34,247 nucleotides of DNA from a virus. This document shows positions 9,723 through 18,406 of this stretch, one piece after another (position 1 is the stretch's first letter; each line of letters begins with the position of its first letter). The notes below the pieces were generated by a model, which worked only from the letters and a program-made list of their open reading frames with translations, ran no database searches and was not told where the DNA came from. Both the position numbers and the translations under genes were made by a program. The stretch covers positions 1 through 34,247 of IMG/VR virus record IMGVR_UViG_3300032313_000396; one strand, 5' to 3'.

Positions 9723-9887
9723 TTATTTATTCTTTTCTAAAAATGTAACTCCATAAAACCAAGTTACTACCATAACAGCGCGAGCGCTCCAATGCCAATT
9801 AAATACGTTAAAATCCAATGTCACGAAAACTATAAATAAATAAGTGATTAACATTAATATAAGCGCGGCAATTGTTTCTTTTTTCAT
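9723..9887 (-). CDS. Small two-TM membrane protein between terminase and portal
   Basis: This 54-residue product starts at an ATG overlapping the TGA of the terminase gene (ATGA at 9884-9887) and ends with a TAA at 9723-9725, 25 bases before the portal ATG. Residues 6-24 (IAALILMLITYLFIVFVTL) and about 37-50 form two hydrophobic stretches joined by a Trp/Asn-rich loop and ending EKNK. A membrane protein at this place is unusual for siphoviruses. A role in superinfection exclusion or host takeover is conceivable, but the sequence does not show it. Confidence 0.75.
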   Translation of the reverse strand: MKKETIAALILMLITYLFIVFVTLDFNVFNWHWSARAVMVVTWFYGVTFLEKNK

Positions 9888-11095
9888 ATTGAGAATTCAA
9901 AGTTGTTTTTTACCATTAATTCAGTTAAACCCCAAACAAGCGCGTCAACTCGATCGGGTGATTTTCCCTTGTCGGGGTTAAAGGTTACCATTTGTGATTC
10001 TAAGATAGGGAAACTACCAACGTGATAAATTTGCCCTTGTTCGTATAATGAATATACGGGCTCGGCTCTCACATATTTTCCCTTAGTTGCTGTTACTAGC
10101 TTTATTCTAAAATTAGTTCCTTGGGACTTTAATACAGCTTCGACCATGTCACCACCTTGGTTCTTTTCAGCTACTATGCAGTCGGCGTTCCATCTTAGCG
10201 CTGCATCATTTGCGACCTTTGCCCAATGATTCGGACTATACTTTCCGCTAAGGTCTTCGAGCACATATCCAAATCCTTCACTATCTTTTCCAACGACAAT
10301 TAAGCCGGTTTCGTCGCTTTGCATATTTGCAGTTACGGCGGGATCGATTGCAACAATTATCCTTGTTAGGTTTGGCGCTTCATCTATTCTAGCCTTTCCA
10401 ATTATTGCGCGATTCCACAACATTCCGTCGGCGTCGTCCAACCAAGTGCCCAAAAATAGATGCTCGTAACGCGCTCTATTCTCTCGCTTGGTTTTTTCCG
10501 CGGCTTGTATGAATGAATCACTTAAATTCTCTTTATTGTCTAGGTATGTCGTATGTATGTAGGTCGTATCTTCTCTTTTCTTTTTTACAAAGTCGTTATA
10601 TATCCAATGCGATTTATACGACGGATTCATTACTAGAATCACGCGGTTTGCGTTATCCTTTGCGCGTATCGATAAGTCTACTTTGTCGAATACGTCGGAG
10701 TCTGTTAATTCTTCCGCTTCATCAATTACCCAAGTTGACAAACCAGCGATCGATTTAAGATTTGCAGTGTTAACGCCGGAACTCGTTTTGATGCCGCGAA
10801 ATAGTATTTTTGATCCTGTCAACTTATTAATGATTTCGGATTGTGTAATCTCAAAGTCGTTGACTTTTCCCATGATTTCTATCTTATCTAGAAACTCGGG
10901 AATAATCGATATAAACGCCGAAACCAAAGTATAACGCGTAAACAAAATTACGTGTCCTTTTTGATAAGTTAGATTAAGTAGAAACAGCGCCAAAGTCCAA
11001 GATTTGCCCGATCCACGTCCGCCGGTGATAAGATAATACCTTGTATCGGGATATTCATAAAATAACGGCTTGTAATCCTCTAATAAATTGATCAT
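9884..11095 (-). CDS. terL: Terminase large subunit
   Basis: This 403-residue ATPase-nuclease packages DNA through the portal. Walker A GGRGSGKS is at 25-32 and Walker B WVIDEAEEL around 122-130. The RNase H-like nuclease has IIVAIDPAV (D251), CIVAEKNQGG (E310) and SPDRVDALVWGL (D384). The ATG at 11095 is chosen over a TTG six bases upstream because it overlaps the stop of the small subunit (ATGA at 11092-11095). The length is slightly short for the family but both domains are complete. I cannot tell cos from pac packaging from the sequence alone. Confidence 0.96.
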   Translation of the reverse strand: MINLLEDYKPLFYEYPDTRYYLITGGRGSGKSWTLALFLLNLTYQKGHVILFTRYTLVSAFISIIPEFLDKIEIMGKVNDFEITQSEIINKLTGSKILFRGIKTSSGVNTANLKSIAGLSTWVIDEAEELTDSDVFDKVDLSIRAKDNANRVILVMNPSYKSHWIYNDFVKKKREDTTYIHTTYLDNKENLSDSFIQAAEKTKRENRARYEHLFLGTWLDDADGMLWNRAIIGKARIDEAPNLTRIIVAIDPAVTANMQSDETGLIVVGKDSEGFGYVLEDLSGKYSPNHWAKVANDAALRWNADCIVAEKNQGGDMVEAVLKSQGTNFRIKLVTATKGKYVRAEPVYSLYEQGQIYHVGSFPILESQMVTFNPDKGKSPDRVDALVWGLTELMVKNNFEFSI

Positions 11096-11493
11096 AGCCA
11101 AATGTCAAATTGTTTGTTCTCTTTATCTTGGTCTACCAAGTTTTGGTAATCGCTTCTTACTTGCTTTTGCAGTTCGTCCAATTGCTGGTTTGTTTCTTCT
11201 TCTTCTTCGCTTACTAACTTTGCGGATTCTATAGCAACTCTTTTGCCTATCCACTGAATAGGAGGCGCGATTTTCTCACCGTTGCTGGTTACGTCGATTT
11301 GCTGTTTAGGTAATCCAAAGCGATAAGATAGCCAAAGTTTTAGCGCGTTCGTGTCACCTTGTTGACATTTGTACAAAAGCGCTTCCCAAATTTTATTGGG
11401 TACGCAAATGGCGTCCATTTGTTCAATTATCTTTATTTCTTCAATTTTTGGCTTTCTACCAGCGCCTAACCTTGCGCCTCCATTTTTCCCCAT
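11092..11493 (-). CDS. terS: Terminase small subunit
   Basis: This 133-residue DNA-recognition subunit precedes the large subunit and is coupled to it by ATGA. The start GKNGGARLGAGRKPK is the Gly/Arg/Lys-rich opening common to small subunits and other phage DNA-binding proteins. Helical segments at 45-60 (ALLYKCQQGDTNALKLWLSY) and an acidic, Gln-rich C-terminal coiled coil (EEEEETNQQLDELQKQVRSD) for oligomerisation or TerL contact follow. It is the first gene of the late arm, 7 bases downstream of the operator-like sequence at 11500-11511. Confidence 0.88.
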   Translation of the reverse strand: MGKNGGARLGAGRKPKIEEIKIIEQMDAICVPNKIWEALLYKCQQGDTNALKLWLSYRFGLPKQQIDVTSNGEKIAPPIQWIGKRVAIESAKLVSEEEEETNQQLDELQKQVRSDYQNLVDQDKENKQFDIWL

Positions 11494-11499
11494 GTTAAT

Positions 11500-11511
11500 A
11501 CAAAGTATTGT
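11500..11511 (-). promoter_or_regulatory. ACAA-N4-TTGT operator-like site before terS
   Basis: ACAAAGTATTGT lies 7 bases upstream of the terS ATG. It matches the palindromic sites at 11604-11615 and 11724-11735 in the early promoters of the same divergent region. A shared regulator acting on both arms is inferred. No convincing TAnnTTTG box accompanies it, so the terS promoter itself is uncertain. Confidence 0.5.
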
Positions 11512-11591
11512 AAAACTGAAATAAAGTGATTATTCACTTCAAAGGTAATTGAAAATAAATAAAAAAAAATAAAAAATATATTTACAAACAC

Positions 11592-11622
11592 TTGCACAAT
11601 CTTACAAAGCTTTGTATATTTG
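11592..11622 (+). promoter_or_regulatory. Early promoter P1 with perfect palindromic operator
   Basis: TTG (11592-11594), a 20-base spacer and TATATTTG (11615-11622) match the Bacteroidota consensus. Between the boxes lies the perfect 12-bp palindrome ACAAAGCTTTGT (11604-11615), which touches the -7 box and would block polymerase if occupied. The first recognised rightward gene lies 160 bases downstream; the A-rich leader holds no clear gene. Confidence 0.75.
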
Positions 11623-11711: not shown

Positions 11712-11742
11712 TTGCAATTACTTACAAACCTTTGTACATTTA
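11712..11742 (+). promoter_or_regulatory. Early promoter P2 with operator
   Basis: TTG (11712-11714), a 20-base spacer and TACATTTA (11735-11742) give the same layout as P1. The operator is ACAAACCTTTGT (11724-11735), one mismatch from palindromy. P1 and P2 share most bases between the boxes (CTTGCA..., TTACAAA, CTTTGTA), so they look duplicated. The first early ATG is at 11785. Confidence 0.65.
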
Positions 11743-12881: not shown

Positions 12882-13066
12882 GAAAGCCCTATTTTACTAT
12901 TCATTCAGTTAAAGCGCTCGAAAGCCGGGCGTTTTCTGTATTTCGTGCAAATATTGAGAACACGCCGGATAAATTAGAATTAGCTAGAAAGCTTTACCCA
13001 ATTGAATTTTGGTATATAGAATTCCACGACGTAAAAATTAGCGTTCTTCCTGTTTATGGCGCGTAA
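12878..13066 (+). CDS. Hypothetical early protein, 62 residues
   Basis: The ATG overlaps the stop of the previous gene (ATGA), fixing the start. The product, MRKPYFTIHSVKALESRAFS then a helical ELARKLYPIEFWYIEFHDVKISVLPVYGA end, is basic at the start and aromatic at the end. No known domain is recognised. It is the last gene before the repeat region. Confidence 0.7.
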   Translation: MRKPYFTIHSVKALESRAFSVFRANIENTPDKLELARKLYPIEFWYIEFHDVKISVLPVYGA

Positions 13067-13186
13067 TTTTCGGGCTTATTTTAGCGCGTTTAACGCGTTT
13101 AAATTTTAGCGTATAGATTACCACTAGTAAAAAAAGATAGCTTTACCACTGGCCTAAAAATAGCCTGATAAACCAAGCGCGAAACC

Positions 13187-13601
13187 GTAGTATAAAACAA
13201 AAGCAGTGGACGAAACCCAAAGCAGTGGACGAAACCCAAAGCAGTAGTATAAAACAAAATAAGTAGTGGAAACACGCCGGAAAATTTAGAGCGCTGATCC
13301 GTAGAGTAAAACAAAATAAGTAGAGTAAAACAAAATAAGTAGAGTAAAACAAAAAGTAATGTCTACAAAATGTCTAAAATTTTGCGGCCGCAAATTGCGA
13401 CCTGAAAAAATAAGTAGTGGAAAACAAAACAAGTAGTGGAAAACAGAACCAGCGCCGCAATCTAGTGGAAAACAAAATCCATAGTGGAAAACAAAATCCA
13501 TAGTGGAAAACAAAAATTGCAGCTCGCTAGTGGAAATTAAAACCGCTAGTGGAAATTAAAACCACTCACACAAAAAACTTACCGCTAGTGGAAAACAGAA
13601 A
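13187..13601 (+). repeat. Array of about 16 TAGTGGAAAACAAAA-type repeats
   Basis: All copies face the same way. Variants are: gtagtataaaacaaaa (13187, 13244), gcagtggacgaaaccca (13203, 13222), gtagagtaaaacaaaataa (13301, 13320, 13339), gtagtggaaaacaaaac and its CAGAACC variant (13414, 13433), tagtggaaaacaaaatcca (13463, 13482, 13501), tagtggaaattaaaacc (13528, 13547), tagtggaaaacagaaa (13586), and a degenerate copy at 13263. Neighbouring copies are usually exactly 19 bases apart. Sub-families sit next to their own kind, as expected from local duplication. TAGTGGAAAA also occurs inside the next genes at 13774 and 14718. Confidence 0.9.
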
Positions 13602-13620: not shown

Positions 13621-13650
13621 TTGCAACTAATACAATCTTTTGTACTTTTA
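13621..13650 (+). promoter_or_regulatory. Early promoter P3 with operator-like site
   Basis: TTG (13621-13623), a 19-base spacer and TACTTTTA (13643-13650) resemble P1/P2. ACAATCTTTTGT (13632-13643) occupies the same place as the palindromic operators there. The ATG of the next gene is at 13676, after an A/C-rich leader (aaaacacaaaaacaaa). Confidence 0.55.
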
Positions 13651-13675
13651 CATCATACTAAAACACAAAAACAAA

Positions 13676-13915
13676 ATGCTAAAAGATCACCAATTTATTT
13701 ATGAGAAATCTGGTTTCACTTTGGAACTGGAATCTTTCGAGAACGAAGGAATTGTTCTTGACATTTATTTCGGTAGTGGAAAATCTCTCACGCTAGAACT
13801 TTACGACGAATTAAACGAACGATTTACAGAACATTACAAAATAGTTTGCCAAATTTTAGATCCATTTATTATTGAACAATTAGAAAACGAAATCAAAAAA
13901 TGCTTTACGAAATGA
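13676..13915 (+). CDS. Hypothetical early protein, 79 residues
   Basis: The product starts MLKDHQFIYEKSGFTLELES and is acidic, with a beta-rich N-terminal half (SGFTLELESFENEGIVLDIYF) and a helical C-terminal half (PFIIEQLENEIKKCFTK). The ATG at 13676 follows the A/C-rich leader typical of this genome. An in-frame ATG 36 bases upstream would lie in the promoter. Its stop overlaps the start of the small DNA-binding gene (ATGA). The sequence contains one copy of TAGTGGAAAA in frame as Ser-Gly-Lys. No family recognised. Confidence 0.7.
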   Translation: MLKDHQFIYEKSGFTLELESFENEGIVLDIYFGSGKSLTLELYDELNERFTEHYKIVCQILDPFIIEQLENEIKKCFTK

Positions 13916-14094
13916 TGACAGCCACAGAATACGGAGTATTGCGTGGCTTTAGCGAAAAATCAACAAGAGTTCACCAGATTATTCGATCTGGAGTTAATCC
14001 ACCAGAGTGGGTGCATCCGCCTAGAAAGCTAGGAAATCAATGGGTAGTTTTTGTTTCAACTGAATGGATAGAAAATGGTAGAGGAAATAGTTGA
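13912..14094 (+). CDS. Small DNA-binding protein (winged-HTH/excisionase-like)
   Basis: The 60-residue product, MMTATEYGVLRGFSEKSTRV then HQIIRSGVNPPEWVHPPRKL and GNQWVVFVSTEW, has the layout of AlpA/excisionase-like winged-helix proteins: a T-A-x-E-Y start, a helix-turn-helix with a recognition helix around STRVHQIIRSG, and a beta-wing ending in W-V-V-F-V-S. It could regulate the early arm or assist recombination. The start is placed at the ATGA overlap (13912). A start 12 bases upstream is possible. Confidence 0.65.
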   Translation: MMTATEYGVLRGFSEKSTRVHQIIRSGVNPPEWVHPPRKLGNQWVVFVSTEWIENGRGNS

Positions 14095-14245
14095 CCAATG
14101 GATTCTCGAGAACTACGGAAAACTAGCCGATAGTGAAAAATTCGAGATAATGAAAACATTCGAATTGTATTGGGATCAATTTAACTTCCCGTACGCTGAA
14201 ATTAAAACGCTAAAACAATACCCTCCCCCCCCCTTTTTTTCCTAG
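14075..14245 (+). CDS. Small acidic protein ending in the C9T7 tract
   Basis: The 56-residue product begins MVEEIVDQWILENYGKLADS and continues with EKFEIMKTFELYWDQFNFPY, a clearly protein-like acidic helix. It overlaps the preceding gene by 20 bases. Its last codons read through nine C and seven T (14225-14240) as Pro-Pro-Pro-Phe-Phe-Ser before TAG at 14243-14245. One base more in the tract, or a -1 ribosomal slip, would remove this stop and run on without another stop into the ERF gene in frame. The end of the protein is therefore likely unstable. Confidence 0.6.
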   Translation: MVEEIVDQWILENYGKLADSEKFEIMKTFELYWDQFNFPYAEIKTLKQYPPPPFFS

Positions 14246-14274: not shown

Positions 14275-14796
14275 ATGAAAGAACTAATTGCAATTCAATC
14301 GGAGCTAAAAGCTCCAAAGAACCAGTTTAACGCGTTCGGCAAGTACAAATATCGTTCTGTAGAGGATATTCTCGAAGCCGTTAAACCTTTGCTTCTAAAA
14401 TATGAATGCACCTTGATTATCGAGGACGAAGTAAAAGAGGTAGGCGGAATTGTCTTCATTGAGGCAACCGCATCGATTCAAAAAGACATGGAAGGCCGAG
14501 CGGTAACGGCGCAAGCCGGCATAGACATTAACCGCAAAGGAATGGATGTGGCGCAAAGTTTCGGAAGCTCATCAAGTTACGCTCGAAAGTACGCGCTCAA
14601 CGGTCTTTTCCTTATCGATGATACAAAAGACCCAGATTCCACGAATGACCATGGTGGTAAAAAAGAGGAGTTAAATCCTTCGCACGTAAAGTGGAACGGA
14701 GCAAAAGATTCTCTAGCTAGTGGAAAAGTAACGCTAGACCAAATTAAGTCGGTTTATATTTTAACATCACAAAACGAAAAACTATTGTTATCATGA
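14275..14796 (+). CDS. erf: ERF-family single-strand annealing protein
   Basis: This 173-residue recombinase anneals complementary single strands, working with an exonuclease in phage recombination and end processing. The family signature is clear: YKYRSVEDILEAVKPLLLKY (25-44), then a beta-rich FIEATASIQ segment and FGSSSSYARKYALNGLFLIDD (about 96-116), followed by TKDPDST. The C-terminal tail is shorter than in P22 Erf. It overlaps the nuclease gene by ATGA (14793-14796), so the two are made together. It lies after the C9T7 tract and a CTAGTAAAAAA site. Confidence 0.93.
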   Translation: MKELIAIQSELKAPKNQFNAFGKYKYRSVEDILEAVKPLLLKYECTLIIEDEVKEVGGIVFIEATASIQKDMEGRAVTAQAGIDINRKGMDVAQSFGSSSSYARKYALNGLFLIDDTKDPDSTNDHGGKKEELNPSHVKWNGAKDSLASGKVTLDQIKSVYILTSQNEKLLLS

Positions 14797-15392
14797 ATTT
14801 TAAATGTAGAGCAAGCGCACTTGGTCATTTGATGACTAACGCTAGAAGTAAAAATGAAACTTTGTCTCAAACGACAAAAAGTTATCTACACGATTGGTAC
14901 AAAGAGCAGATTTACGGCGTAAAAAAGCAAATCAAATCCAAGTACATCGAAAAAGGATTGGCTTTGGAAGATCAGGCTATCGAGTTTTACTCGGTAGCTA
15001 TGGAAAAGGACTTTATGATTAAAAATCTGGATAAATTCGAAGATGATTTCTTCACAGGAACTCCAGATTGTTTCCACGACGGAATAGTCTACGACTTTAA
15101 AACCTCGTGGGACTGCTTTACTTTCCCTCTGTTCGACGATCAGCCTGATAATGGGTACTTCTATCAACTGCAAGTTTATATGCATCTTACGGGCTTAAAA
15201 AAGGCCAAATTAGTTTACACGCTTCAGGACACTCCAGAATTCTTGACTTACGAGGATCCGGTAAGCTACTCGCACGTGGAAAACAAATACAGAATTAAGG
15301 AATTTGACATCTATTACGATTCAGAAGTGATTGAAACAGCGAAAGCAAAAGTTTTGGAATGTAGAGAATATTTAAACGGAATCTTGGTATAG
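14793..15392 (+). CDS. YqaJ-like PD-(D/E)XK exonuclease
   Basis: This 199-residue nuclease is the likely 5'-3' exonuclease partner of the ERF protein, as lambda Exo is for Beta. The active site is visible: E59 in EKGLALEDQAIEF, D92 in FTGTPDCFHDG, D101 and K103 in YDFKTSWD, and the Q-x-x-x-Y motif in YFYQLQVYMHLTG (125-129). Length is typical for YqaJ/RecB-like phage nucleases. A C-tract (15407-15414) separates it from the triple-HTH gene. Confidence 0.92.
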   Translation: MNFKCRASALGHLMTNARSKNETLSQTTKSYLHDWYKEQIYGVKKQIKSKYIEKGLALEDQAIEFYSVAMEKDFMIKNLDKFEDDFFTGTPDCFHDGIVYDFKTSWDCFTFPLFDDQPDNGYFYQLQVYMHLTGLKKAKLVYTLQDTPEFLTYEDPVSYSHVENKYRIKEFDIYYDSEVIETAKAKVLECREYLNGILV

Positions 15393-15423: not shown

Positions 15424-15870
15424 ATGACATCCCTAAATCAGGAACAAAAAGACGAGATAGTCAGGCTATATAAACTTAAAGTAATGAATAAAAATATAGC
15501 AACTATTTTAAATATTAGTAGGCACGTAGTAAACAATTACATCTACAAAGACTACTTGCTTACCAATGAGAGAGCCAAGAACACGTGCGCTTACATGAAG
15601 GATGCAGATCAAGTAATTGAATTATATATTAAAGGTCTTCCATATAAACAAATTATGTCTATGACTGGTGTAAAATACCATCATTTGTGTGAGTTGATAA
15701 AACTTACACCAAAAAGAAGAATTGATCCTTTATCTATAAAATTAGTTATGCAAATAGAAAGAATGGTAATGGAAAATTGGAGAACTTGCGACATAGCAAA
15801 AGAGCTAGATTTAGAGTACAATCGAGTCTCACATTGGGTTAGAAAAGCAAGAAAGGAGGGTGTACACTAG
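15424..15870 (+). CDS. Triple helix-turn-helix DNA-binding protein
   Basis: This 148-residue protein consists of three HTH units and little else. Unit 1, about 5-42, carries NKNIATILNISRHVVNNYIY. Unit 2, about 62-92, carries YKQIMSMTGVKYHHLCELIK. Unit 3, about 105-143, carries TCDIAKELDLEYNRVSHWVR. Each has the helix-turn-recognition-helix layout of homeodomain-like (Sigma-70 r4/resolvase-like) units. The last codons of its gene are themselves the first 8-bp site (GTGTACAC, 15860-15867) of the repeat cluster that follows, and the prim-pol gene lies beyond. It is the best candidate to bind those sites, as initiator or autoregulator. This is inference from layout. Confidence 0.85.
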   Translation: MTSLNQEQKDEIVRLYKLKVMNKNIATILNISRHVVNNYIYKDYLLTNERAKNTCAYMKDADQVIELYIKGLPYKQIMSMTGVKYHHLCELIKLTPKRRIDPLSIKLVMQIERMVMENWRTCDIAKELDLEYNRVSHWVRKARKEGVH

Positions 15871-15900
15871 TTTACACTAAGTGTACACCTAAGTGTAAAC
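15860..15900 (+). repeat. Repeat cluster A: four GTGTAMAC sites (left arm)
   Basis: Sites are GTGTACAC 15860-15867, GTTTACAC 15870-15877 (reverse orientation), GTGTACAC 15881-15888 and GTGTAAAC 15893-15900. Start-to-start distances are 10, 11 and 12 bases, about one helical turn, so all would face the same side of the helix. The 41-bp arm is nearly the reverse complement of cluster B. GTGAACAC at 15935-15942 may be a degenerate outlier. Confidence 0.92.
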
Positions 15901-16198
15901 CAAAATCGGCCTCAATTGGCTCCAATCGCAATAAGTGAACACTTTGAACACTTTTTGACAAAAATAAAAAAAAATAAATTTTCACCTAGTAAAAAAAAAT
16001 ACATTATAAAAAAAAGTGTAAACCTGTAAACCTAGGGCAAAAAACGGCCTAAAATCCCGCTAATTTAAGCGTATTCGCACTTTAGGGGGGTTTACACTAG
16101 GTGTAAACTAAGTGTAAACTTGTGTACACTTTTTTGCCAAAAACAGCTAAAATTTACCCTACCCCCCCTCTTTTTTCAAACCTTTGTAAAACACAAAA
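15871..16198. other. Origin-like intergenic region between HTH and prim-pol genes
   Basis: No gene is seen in these 328 bases. The order is: cluster A; a mixed stretch with two degenerate sites; a very A-rich stretch (about 15960-16015) including a CTAGTAAAAAA site (15986 on); an isolated GTGTAAAC (16016-16023) with CTGTAAAC next to it; a moderately GC-rich stretch; six G (16085-16090); cluster B; seven C (16162-16168); and an operator-like TCAAACCTTTGT (16176-16187) just before the prim-pol ATG. Iteron clusters flanking an A/T-rich segment beside the replication gene are the usual signs of a replication origin. Confidence 0.6.
16090..16129 (-). repeat. Repeat cluster B: four GTGTAMAC sites (right arm, inverted)
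   Basis: Sites are GTTTACAC 16090-16097, GTGTAAAC 16101-16108, GTGTAAAC 16112-16119 and GTGTACAC 16122-16129, at distances 11, 11 and 10. Reverse-complemented, this 40-bp arm equals cluster A with three substitutions and one missing base. The arms are 189 bases apart, so the whole forms a large inverted repeat. Confidence 0.92.
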
Positions 16199-18406
16199 AT
16201 GAACGTAACACTAGGAAGAGCAATTAACTTACTAAACTCAGGGTTCAGCGTAATGCCCATATCGGAGGGTAAAAAACCTCTGATTTTATGGAAGGAGTAC
16301 CAGACAAAAAAGATAGAAAAGTCAGAATTAGAGAAGCTCGAATACAAGACCAAAGGATACGGTATTATAACTGGTTTTTACGATGTTGAATGTATAGATG
16401 TAGACTTAAAGGTATTTCCAACTATCCAAGACGGAAAGAAGTTCTGGAATGACTTTATTTCTTTTATATCAGATTATATTGATGACTTTAATAGAAAGTT
16501 TGTAATATATAAGACTATAAATTCTGGATACCATATTATTTATCGATGTTCGAAGGTAGATGGAAACAGAAAGCTTGCAACACTCAAGGGACATTCTCAA
16601 GCCTTAATAGAAACTAGGGGAACTGGTGGATACATTTATATCTACGACAATCAAGTATCTGATTTGTCTTATGAGCAAGTGCAAGAGATAACAGAAGAAG
16701 AAAGAGAGATTCTGTTTGGATTATGCCGGTACTTCCATTACGATGAAGCCAAGGAGGAAACTAAGATTGAGATCACAGAATATAGCGGACTTACTCCTTG
16801 GCAGGATTACAATCAGAGAAACAAGGTGCTAGATTTAATTGCAAATGAGTTTACCGCAGTTAAGCACCTCACGGATCGAATAGTGATAAGAAAAACTAAT
16901 TCTAAGGATGCCTTGCATGGATTTATATATAAGGATAGCGGATTGTGTTATCTCTTTACTACGGCCACGATTTACCCTCACGAGACACCTTTAACTCCGT
17001 TTAGTATCTACGCTTACAAATACTTCAATGGAGACTTCTCAATGGCTGCAAAAGAGCTGTACAAAGAAGGCTATGGAGAACGAAAGATTCGCAAGGTAGA
17101 AATTGAAAAGATTGATATTCCTCAGGAGGATTTAATATTTCCGATTGATGTGTTCCCAGAATCATTGCAGAGTTATATTCTTTTAAATCAGAAAACACTT
17201 AATCATTCTATTGACTACATGGGTAGTTCCTTACTTTGGCTTTTGTCTTTGTGCATTGGTAACGCTTGCAAGGTAGAAGTAAAAACGGGCTGGAGGGAAT
17301 CTTGCAACATTTGGATTGGATTGATAGGCAAGGCTGGACTAGGAAAAACACCTAGTATAAATGCCATTATCTTCCCTATTGCTAAGAAAAATAGCTTTGA
17401 GATTAAGCACTACCAGAATGAGTACAAAAAGTACAAGGAATTCGAGCGATTGACTGCAAAGGAAAAAAAGGATGTAGAGGAAATTAAGGAGCCTGTAAGA
17501 AAGCAACTAATTGTAAATGACATCACCGTAGAAGCTTTGGCGGATTTGCACGAGGAAAATCAAGTAGGAATTGCCGTATTTAAGGATGAATTGAACGGGT
17601 GGATCAAGGACATGAATAAGTATAAGCCTGGCTCTGATCTAGAGTTTTGGCTCTCATGTTGGTCTAACCAAGCAGCAATTCTAACTAGAAAGTCTACAAA
17701 AAGTAGCTTTGTTGCGAGTCCATTGATTCCAGTACTAGGTGGTATACAACCTGGAATATTTTCTCAAATTTCCACAATGGAAAACAAAGACAATGGATTC
17801 CTAGACCGATTGCTAGTAAGTTATCCGGACAAAGAAATTGAACACTACAACAAGAACTCTATTGATCAAGAAATATTGGATTGGTATGAGGCTTACATTA
17901 GTCAGTTCTATAACCTAGTGAGAAACCAAGTTTTGCAGTACAATAAATTTGGTGAGATCGAGAGTAGAATCATTCGATTTGATAGCAAAGCAGATATTGA
18001 GTGGGAGCGTATCTTTAACAATATCACAGATTTGCAGAACTCTGATGACATCTCGGAATATGTGAAATCCATGTTGAGTAAGCAGAAGGCTTATGTGCCT
18101 AGATTTGCTCTGTTGATTAATACGCTTTGGTCATTCGAGACCGGAAAGGATTTTGACTTTGTTACTAAGGAATCTTTACTGAAGGCAGAAAAGTTGAGTA
18201 ACTACTTTATTGCTATGTCAAAGAAAATTAAGATTAGCAGTCTTGAATCCAATGAAATTAGTGAAATAATCAGGTCGATGAAAAATGAGTCCATAGAAAA
18301 GAAAATAGAGATGATTAATAAGACCATTCCAGATTTTAACCGCTCTGAGTTAGCAGAGTTGCTAAATGTAAGTAGAACAACGATTTATAAACACCTAAAA
18401 AAATGA
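16199..18406 (+). CDS. Primase-polymerase/DUF3987 helicase-like replication protein
   Basis: This 735-residue protein is the main replication enzyme. Residues 1-170 are a bifunctional prim-pol (AEP) domain: GYGIITGFYDVECIDVDLK with D67 and D69 as metal ligands, NSGYHIIYRC with H112, and ALIETRGTGGYIYIY for nucleotide contact. Residues about 310-690 are a DUF3987-type P-loop ATPase: Walker A GKAGLGKTPS (377-386), acidic AVFKDELNGW (459-468), then SSFVASPLIPVLGGIQPG and NGFLDRLLVSYPD. The C-terminus ends in an HTH (NRSELAELLNVSRTTIYKHL). The enzyme probably primes, and may unwind or extend, DNA at the adjacent repeat region. ATGA overlap joins it to the next gene. No separate DNA polymerase gene is seen, so host polymerase may do bulk synthesis. 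Confidence 0.92.
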   Translation: MNVTLGRAINLLNSGFSVMPISEGKKPLILWKEYQTKKIEKSELEKLEYKTKGYGIITGFYDVECIDVDLKVFPTIQDGKKFWNDFISFISDYIDDFNRKFVIYKTINSGYHIIYRCSKVDGNRKLATLKGHSQALIETRGTGGYIYIYDNQVSDLSYEQVQEITEEEREILFGLCRYFHYDEAKEETKIEITEYSGLTPWQDYNQRNKVLDLIANEFTAVKHLTDRIVIRKTNSKDALHGFIYKDSGLCYLFTTATIYPHETPLTPFSIYAYKYFNGDFSMAAKELYKEGYGERKIRKVEIEKIDIPQEDLIFPIDVFPESLQSYILLNQKTLNHSIDYMGSSLLWLLSLCIGNACKVEVKTGWRESCNIWIGLIGKAGLGKTPSINAIIFPIAKKNSFEIKHYQNEYKKYKEFERLTAKEKKDVEEIKEPVRKQLIVNDITVEALADLHEENQVGIAVFKDELNGWIKDMNKYKPGSDLEFWLSCWSNQAAILTRKSTKSSFVASPLIPVLGGIQPGIFSQISTMENKDNGFLDRLLVSYPDKEIEHYNKNSIDQEILDWYEAYISQFYNLVRNQVLQYNKFGEIESRIIRFDSKADIEWERIFNNITDLQNSDDISEYVKSMLSKQKAYVPRFALLINTLWSFETGKDFDFVTKESLLKAEKLSNYFIAMSKKIKISSLESNEISEIIRSMKNESIEKKIEMINKTIPDFNRSELAELLNVSRTTIYKHLKK

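Follow-up and report, generated by a model that had tools for sequence, protein, structure and literature searches.

An uncultivated phage, represented in IMG/VR by the record IMGVR_UViG_3300032313_000396, carries an array of 16 elements of 15 bp with the consensus TAGTGGAAAACAAAA (13188..13600, + strand), all in a single orientation and placed in front of the promoter of its recombination genes. The window analysed is the whole record, 34,247 bases. We give it somewhat better than an even chance that the array is an operator on which a small winged-HTH protein of the kind encoded by g2, the second gene behind the promoter, would assemble as a cooperative filament and so regulate the recombination and replication genes.

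The genes from about 0.1 to 11.5 kb, capsid and terminase genes among them, are read leftward and the early genes from 12 kb rightward. Of the larger early genes, the first codes for a Gene product 88 family protein (PF17338, 12046-12675). The gene row upstream of the array ends at 13066, and in the 0.6 kb between this point and the start of g1 at 13676 no plausible gene was found; the part up to the array (13066..13187, no strand assigned) is a conserved non-coding block which holds a terminator-like hairpin at 13083-13099. Behind the promoter the + strand carries g1 (79 aa, 13676..13915) as the first gene, followed by g2 (64 aa, 13900..14094), g3 (56 aa, 14075..14245), the gene of an ERF single-strand annealing protein (PF04404, 14275..14796), an exonuclease gene (PHROG 5715, 14793..15392) and a gene for a 148-aa protein with three trihelical HTH domains (15424..15870). 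No known family was matched by g1 or g3. The g2 protein, a predicted winged-HTH of BldC/Xis type, is the candidate binder of the array and the 148-aa protein is the rival candidate.

The sequence-only reading had placed about 16 oriented elements at 13187-13601, and they are present. Regular elements found with a PWM start at 13188, 13207, 13226, 13245, 13302, 13321, 13340, 13415, 13434, 13463, 13482, 13501, 13528, 13547 and 13586, and a degenerate 16th copy lies at 13264; all 16 (15 regular and one degenerate) are on the + strand. When up to one mismatch is allowed, TAGTGGAAAA matches the window 18 times where 4.9 matches would be expected, and none of 100 shuffles comes to 18; the exact word occurs eight times forward and never in reverse, and a control with the reversed pattern gave no match in the window. 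The elements belong to the sub-types TAGTATAAAAC, TGGACGAAACC, TAGAGTAAAAC, TAGTGGAAAAC and TAGTGGAAATT, and the early impression that each sits beside its own kind was borne out by TRF blocks and by tokenised arrays. Such an arrangement fits local duplication together with homogenisation. The period of 19 bp that had been proposed is the commonest spacing, not the sole one: 27, 29, 39 and 57 bp also recur.

Copies outside the array fared less well. In-frame copies had been reported in two following genes, and in the window they do exist, in the ERF gene at 14718 and in g1 at 13774, but relatives with other residues there lack them. The ERF copy depends on the protein sequence ASGKV and is absent from most relatives, which have ANGKV or another sequence, and the g1 copy is absent in relatives with N instead of S at that place. 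We have rejected these copies as functional sites, the codons accounting for them. The CTAGTAAAAAA sites that had been pointed out in early non-coding gaps are not clearly above chance (seven at up to one mismatch against 3.2 expected, a number that 8 of 100 shuffles attain), and they were not kept at the same places in the relatives inspected.

Scans of a viral collection gave 92 distinct ERF-containing neighbourhoods, all from uncultivated phages. In the 88 regions before a g1 homologue a position-specific matrix found 749 forward elements and 2 reverse ones. A comparison among related phages had been suggested from the start, and it turned up 68 distinct arrays of constant orientation, mostly with 5-22 elements, which shows that the array is no product of assembly and is shared beyond this contig. 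One large group of relatives uses elements of the type TAGTGTAAAAC and others use TAGTGGAAAAT or TAGTGGAAAAA. Across the relatives the array turns over in both copy number and sub-type, and a comparison of the window with L009, a relative with an identical ERF protein, shows a similar order of spacings with the element types switched en bloc. The array and g2 occur together in 232 of the 232 loci which have g2 and at least 600 bp upstream of it, a count which includes overlapping copies of the same contigs and comes from one phage group; the eight array loci without g2 are contig ends. Neither array nor g2 was found in 80 more distant ERF loci or in a Riemerella phage with an ERF gene. Beyond distant matches to ERF, terminase and primase, the phage collection had no sequenced isolate relatives, and no g2 was found in host genomes or prophages. 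One record, IMGVR_UViG_3300020043_006644 (L110/L139), contains the array with its genes twice over, once in each orientation, which looks like an inverted duplication made in assembly.

Neighbouring elements in the relatives are separated by distances which cluster at 17/19, 27-29, 37-39, 47-49 and 55-58 bp. The spacings are thus quantised, at about 19, 28, 38 and 57 bp, though the spacer sequences are unrelated: spacers of 14 nt come in more than 60 distinct sequences and those of 12 nt in about 40, and the spacers at spacing 29 include such different sequences as CCAGGTTGACCCCC, CGGAAAAATAGGGT, TTTCTCTGGGGTGT and CCAGCGCCGCGATC. Before a lattice was fitted, similar spacers were removed by greedy clustering, and so were gaps hiding a degenerate element. 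With zero phase the optimum is 9.45 bp (bootstrap 9.3-9.6), and for 52 non-redundant spacings none of 5000 randomised sets reached it; for the strictest 13 spacings 35-39 of 5000 null sets did (<1%). A regression on spacing class gave a slope of 9.59 and an intercept of -0.23, the class assignment presupposing a period near 9.6, and the peak of a free-phase periodogram is broader, 9.5-10.0 bp. One clade (L074, L085) also uses the off-lattice spacings 31 and 33 bp. Since spacers of the same length are unrelated in sequence and still fall on the lattice, the constraint is geometric. Plain helical phasing at a turn of 10.5 bp was rejected, being contradicted by the pitch: the lattice score is -0.26 at 10.5 bp and 0.535 at the optimum. 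A better fit than sites on one face of B-DNA is a run of adjoining units along the duplex, each of about 9.5 bp and two to an element, and the pitch would suit small winged-HTH proteins which coat direct repeats head-to-tail, as BldC, Apl and lambda Xis do.

These observations bear on the proposals that the array is a packaging signal, a Chi-like entry point for recombination or a decoy RNA or DNA, all of which were raised in the sequence-only reading and which we now hold to be very improbable. The array does precede the ERF and exonuclease genes, and the RNA of the window array folds slightly better than shuffled sequences (z -2.5). Chi-like use would need scattered sites; the motif forms one cluster per genome with few or no copies elsewhere, which speaks against it, as does the lack of the array in the 80 distant ERF phages. 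The terminase genes lie elsewhere (9884-11493) with the array 1.7 kb outside them, and no coupling to packaging was found. As to a decoy RNA, relatives disagree in how well their arrays fold (z from +0.95 to -6.5), the array had no Rfam match, and a spacing pattern of protein on duplex DNA is unexpected for RNA.

The array ends shortly before a promoter. The promoter-proximal element TAGTGGAAAACAGAA (13586..13600, + strand), preceded by a conserved 39-bp gap, starts 35 bp before the -33 box TTGCA; in most relatives this distance is 33 bp. An alignment of relatives shows that the promoter itself, TTGCA (-33) and TACTTTTAC (-7) at 13621..13651 on the + strand, is conserved. It is of the Bacteroidetes type, and array and promoter together are laid out as in a Bacteroidetes promoter which has a regulatory region in front of it. 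All relatives have the same order: a last element, a conserved stretch ending in TTGCA, a box like TACATTTAC or TACCTTAGC and then the start of g1. In 54 of 72 distinct sequences the last element lies 33 bp from TTGCA and in 64 of the 72 it lies at 32-35 bp; one clade has 26-27 bp. Inside the promoter there is an imperfect palindrome, TACAATCTTTTGTA, at 13631-13644. Near-palindromes of the form TACAAANNTTTGTA occur in early promoter regions at 11499-11512, 11603-11616, 11723-11736, 13631-13644 and 16175-16188; two are perfect, their total count is not above chance, and their placement is suggestive.

As its elements are A-rich and keep a nearly constant distance to the promoter behind them, the array could also be an extended UP-like enhancer of A-rich tracts, bound by RNA polymerase or by a host protein. 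We find this improbable. The array stretches more than 400 bp upstream, and the known reach of the polymerase alpha subunit falls far short of this; moreover, the core TAG..AAA is a specific word, more than a merely A-rich one, and the pitch is not 10.5 bp.

If a phage protein coats the array, g2 would most likely be that protein. Its AlphaFold2 model (pLDDT 88.6) has helices at 8-14, 23-30 and 54-61 and a two-stranded wing, that is, a predicted stand-alone winged-HTH fold within 60-80 aa. In a second structural comparison BldC-DNA, TraN and lambda Xis-DNA were the top neighbours with low Z values of 4.4-4.6; the Foldseek E-values were not significant, and no Pfam or NCBIfam profile, those of HTH_17, MerR and excisionases included, matched even at E 10. 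For this reason a likeness of fold is claimed here and not membership of the BldC family. As g1, g3 and the triple-HTH gene accompany the array just as g2 does, co-occurrence does not single out g2, and the assignment rests on fold and pitch. In a multiple regression the array type tracks g2 best, with linkage as a confounding factor. A covariation between residues of g2 and the G/T at position 6 of the element was considered and rejected: g1 and g3 track it equally and it fails in L117, L055 and L077. A role in excision is unlikely because a search for tyrosine integrases (PF00589) found none in the window and none in nine relatives (27-37 kb), the control being positive in 14 of 14.

The alternative that the binder is the 148-aa triple-HTH protein, as a monomer on each asymmetric element of 15-19 bp with the array serving as a regulatory or replication platform, seems unlikely to us, if worth keeping in mind. 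Its structure model has three trihelical HTHs, and there are weak profile and fold matches to Cbp1, a CRISPR-repeat binder, and to the bipartite Tc3 transposase domain, both of which read long asymmetric sites; its gene is found together with the array, and one site further downstream (AAGTGTAAACCAAAA, 15891) matches the array element at 11 bits. That site belongs to region B, which adjoins the protein's own gene and would be a simpler target. Monomers sitting on one face would moreover give a period of 10.5 bp, where the lattice score is negative. Nor is the type of the triple-HTH protein supported as the determinant of array type: window-type arrays accompany HTH proteins which are only about 52% identical (L124, L027), and triple-HTH distance adds nothing in the regression on array type. 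The gene diverges faster than the adjacent primase gene, and two C-terminal types (148 and 151 aa) are found in relatives.

Region B (15860..16199, no strand assigned), in front of the primase-helicase gene, has an AT-rich core surrounded by GTGTAAAC / GTGTACAC sites of either orientation, which follow one another both directly and inverted at distances of 10-12 bp. It is far better conserved than the array, and its GTGTAAAC sites are kept in relatives with quite different arrays. A feature separate from the array, region B is probably the origin of replication. Distant ERF phages, too, have repeat arrays downstream of their ERF gene, with palindromic units of 12-19 bp (e.g., GATACACTAAGTGTAACAT), at L337:3952-4073, L338:3527-3649, L284:5132-5236 and L286:3258-3379; these resemble region B and may be origins.

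Plasmid and lambda iterons are direct repeats near replication genes. The array could be an origin with iterons bound by an initiator, the promoter lying nearby by coincidence or for transcriptional activation. Iterons had been among the roles first suggested, and as to form this was right: the direct repeats are oriented, 15-19 bp long, of regular pitch and beside the replication and recombination row. As to function we think it quite unlikely. The array is tied to a promoter and a winged-HTH module and changes copy number and sub-type between relatives, and region B, with the primase-helicase gene immediately behind it, makes a better candidate for the origin. Among the proteins scanned there was no initiator gene of Rep or O type.

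For the filament operator that we favour the following mechanism can be proposed. A small protein would assemble cooperatively and head-to-tail on the double-stranded array DNA, each protomer of the filament taking up about 9.5 bp. An element of 15 bp would anchor roughly two protomers, and extra protomers would fill the sequence-free spacers, which is why only the length of a spacer would matter. Anchors with a sequence and spacers with only a length are what cooperative head-to-tail binding of the BldC, Xis or Apl kind would yield. The filament would end a nearly constant distance short of the -33 box and would in this way set the output of the promoter of the row g1-g2-g3-ERF-exonuclease-HTH. 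With g2, encoded second in this same row, as the binder the circuit would be autoregulatory, and we lean towards autorepression rather than activation as the net effect. A more far-reaching variant, in which a BldC/Xis-like mini-protein without an integrase forms a phage-specific long filament over up to about 0.7 kb which is more than a promoter switch, e.g., a platform coupling recombination, replication start and gene timing, we consider possible but unlikely.

Natural arrays which hold their pitch while the spacer sequences drift offer a rare chance to deduce the geometry of a filament with nothing but sequence. Should g2 be the binder, excisionase-like proteins would act purely as gene regulators in these phages, the arrays would be the longest direct-repeat operators for that fold known to us, and there would be many natural variants for testing how filament length tunes a promoter.

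Among known systems the iteron origins of plasmids and phages are like the array in that repeats of about 19 bp stand in tandem, all pointing one way, close to replication genes; the array differs in its near-fixed distance to a promoter, in the rapid turnover of sub-types and in having a separate conserved origin-like region. Phage 186 Apl binds cooperatively to direct repeats, extends from them onto non-specific DNA and acts as a repressor of early promoters (PMC7498355). Apl, P2 Cox and lambda Xis, recombination directionality factors which also serve as regulators, resemble the system proposed here in being small winged-HTH proteins with cooperative head-to-tail binding of direct repeats, spreading and control of phage promoters (PMC7498355). 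Apl-type repeats are 10-11 bp apart, slightly wider than the array pitch of 9.5 bp, and the array is far longer than the Apl, Cox and Xis sites and stands in phages where, in this window and nine relatives, no tyrosine integrase was found. A further likeness is to Streptomyces BldC at the whiI and smeA-ssfA promoters, like g2 a single-domain winged-HTH protein, of about 65-68 aa (PMC5859096, PMC11963761). BldC lines up head-to-tail on direct repeats, the number of which varies (PMC5859096), and its repeats in whiI are of 9 bp (PMC11963761), so that BldC sites and the array have in common direct repeats in one orientation, a variable number of them, about 9 bp per protomer and a location in promoter regions. 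The two well-studied BldC sites have 2 and 4 repeats, whereas the phage arrays have 5-22 anchor elements over up to about 0.75 kb and, unlike the BldC sites, lie in a phage and have sequence-free spacers held to a lattice.
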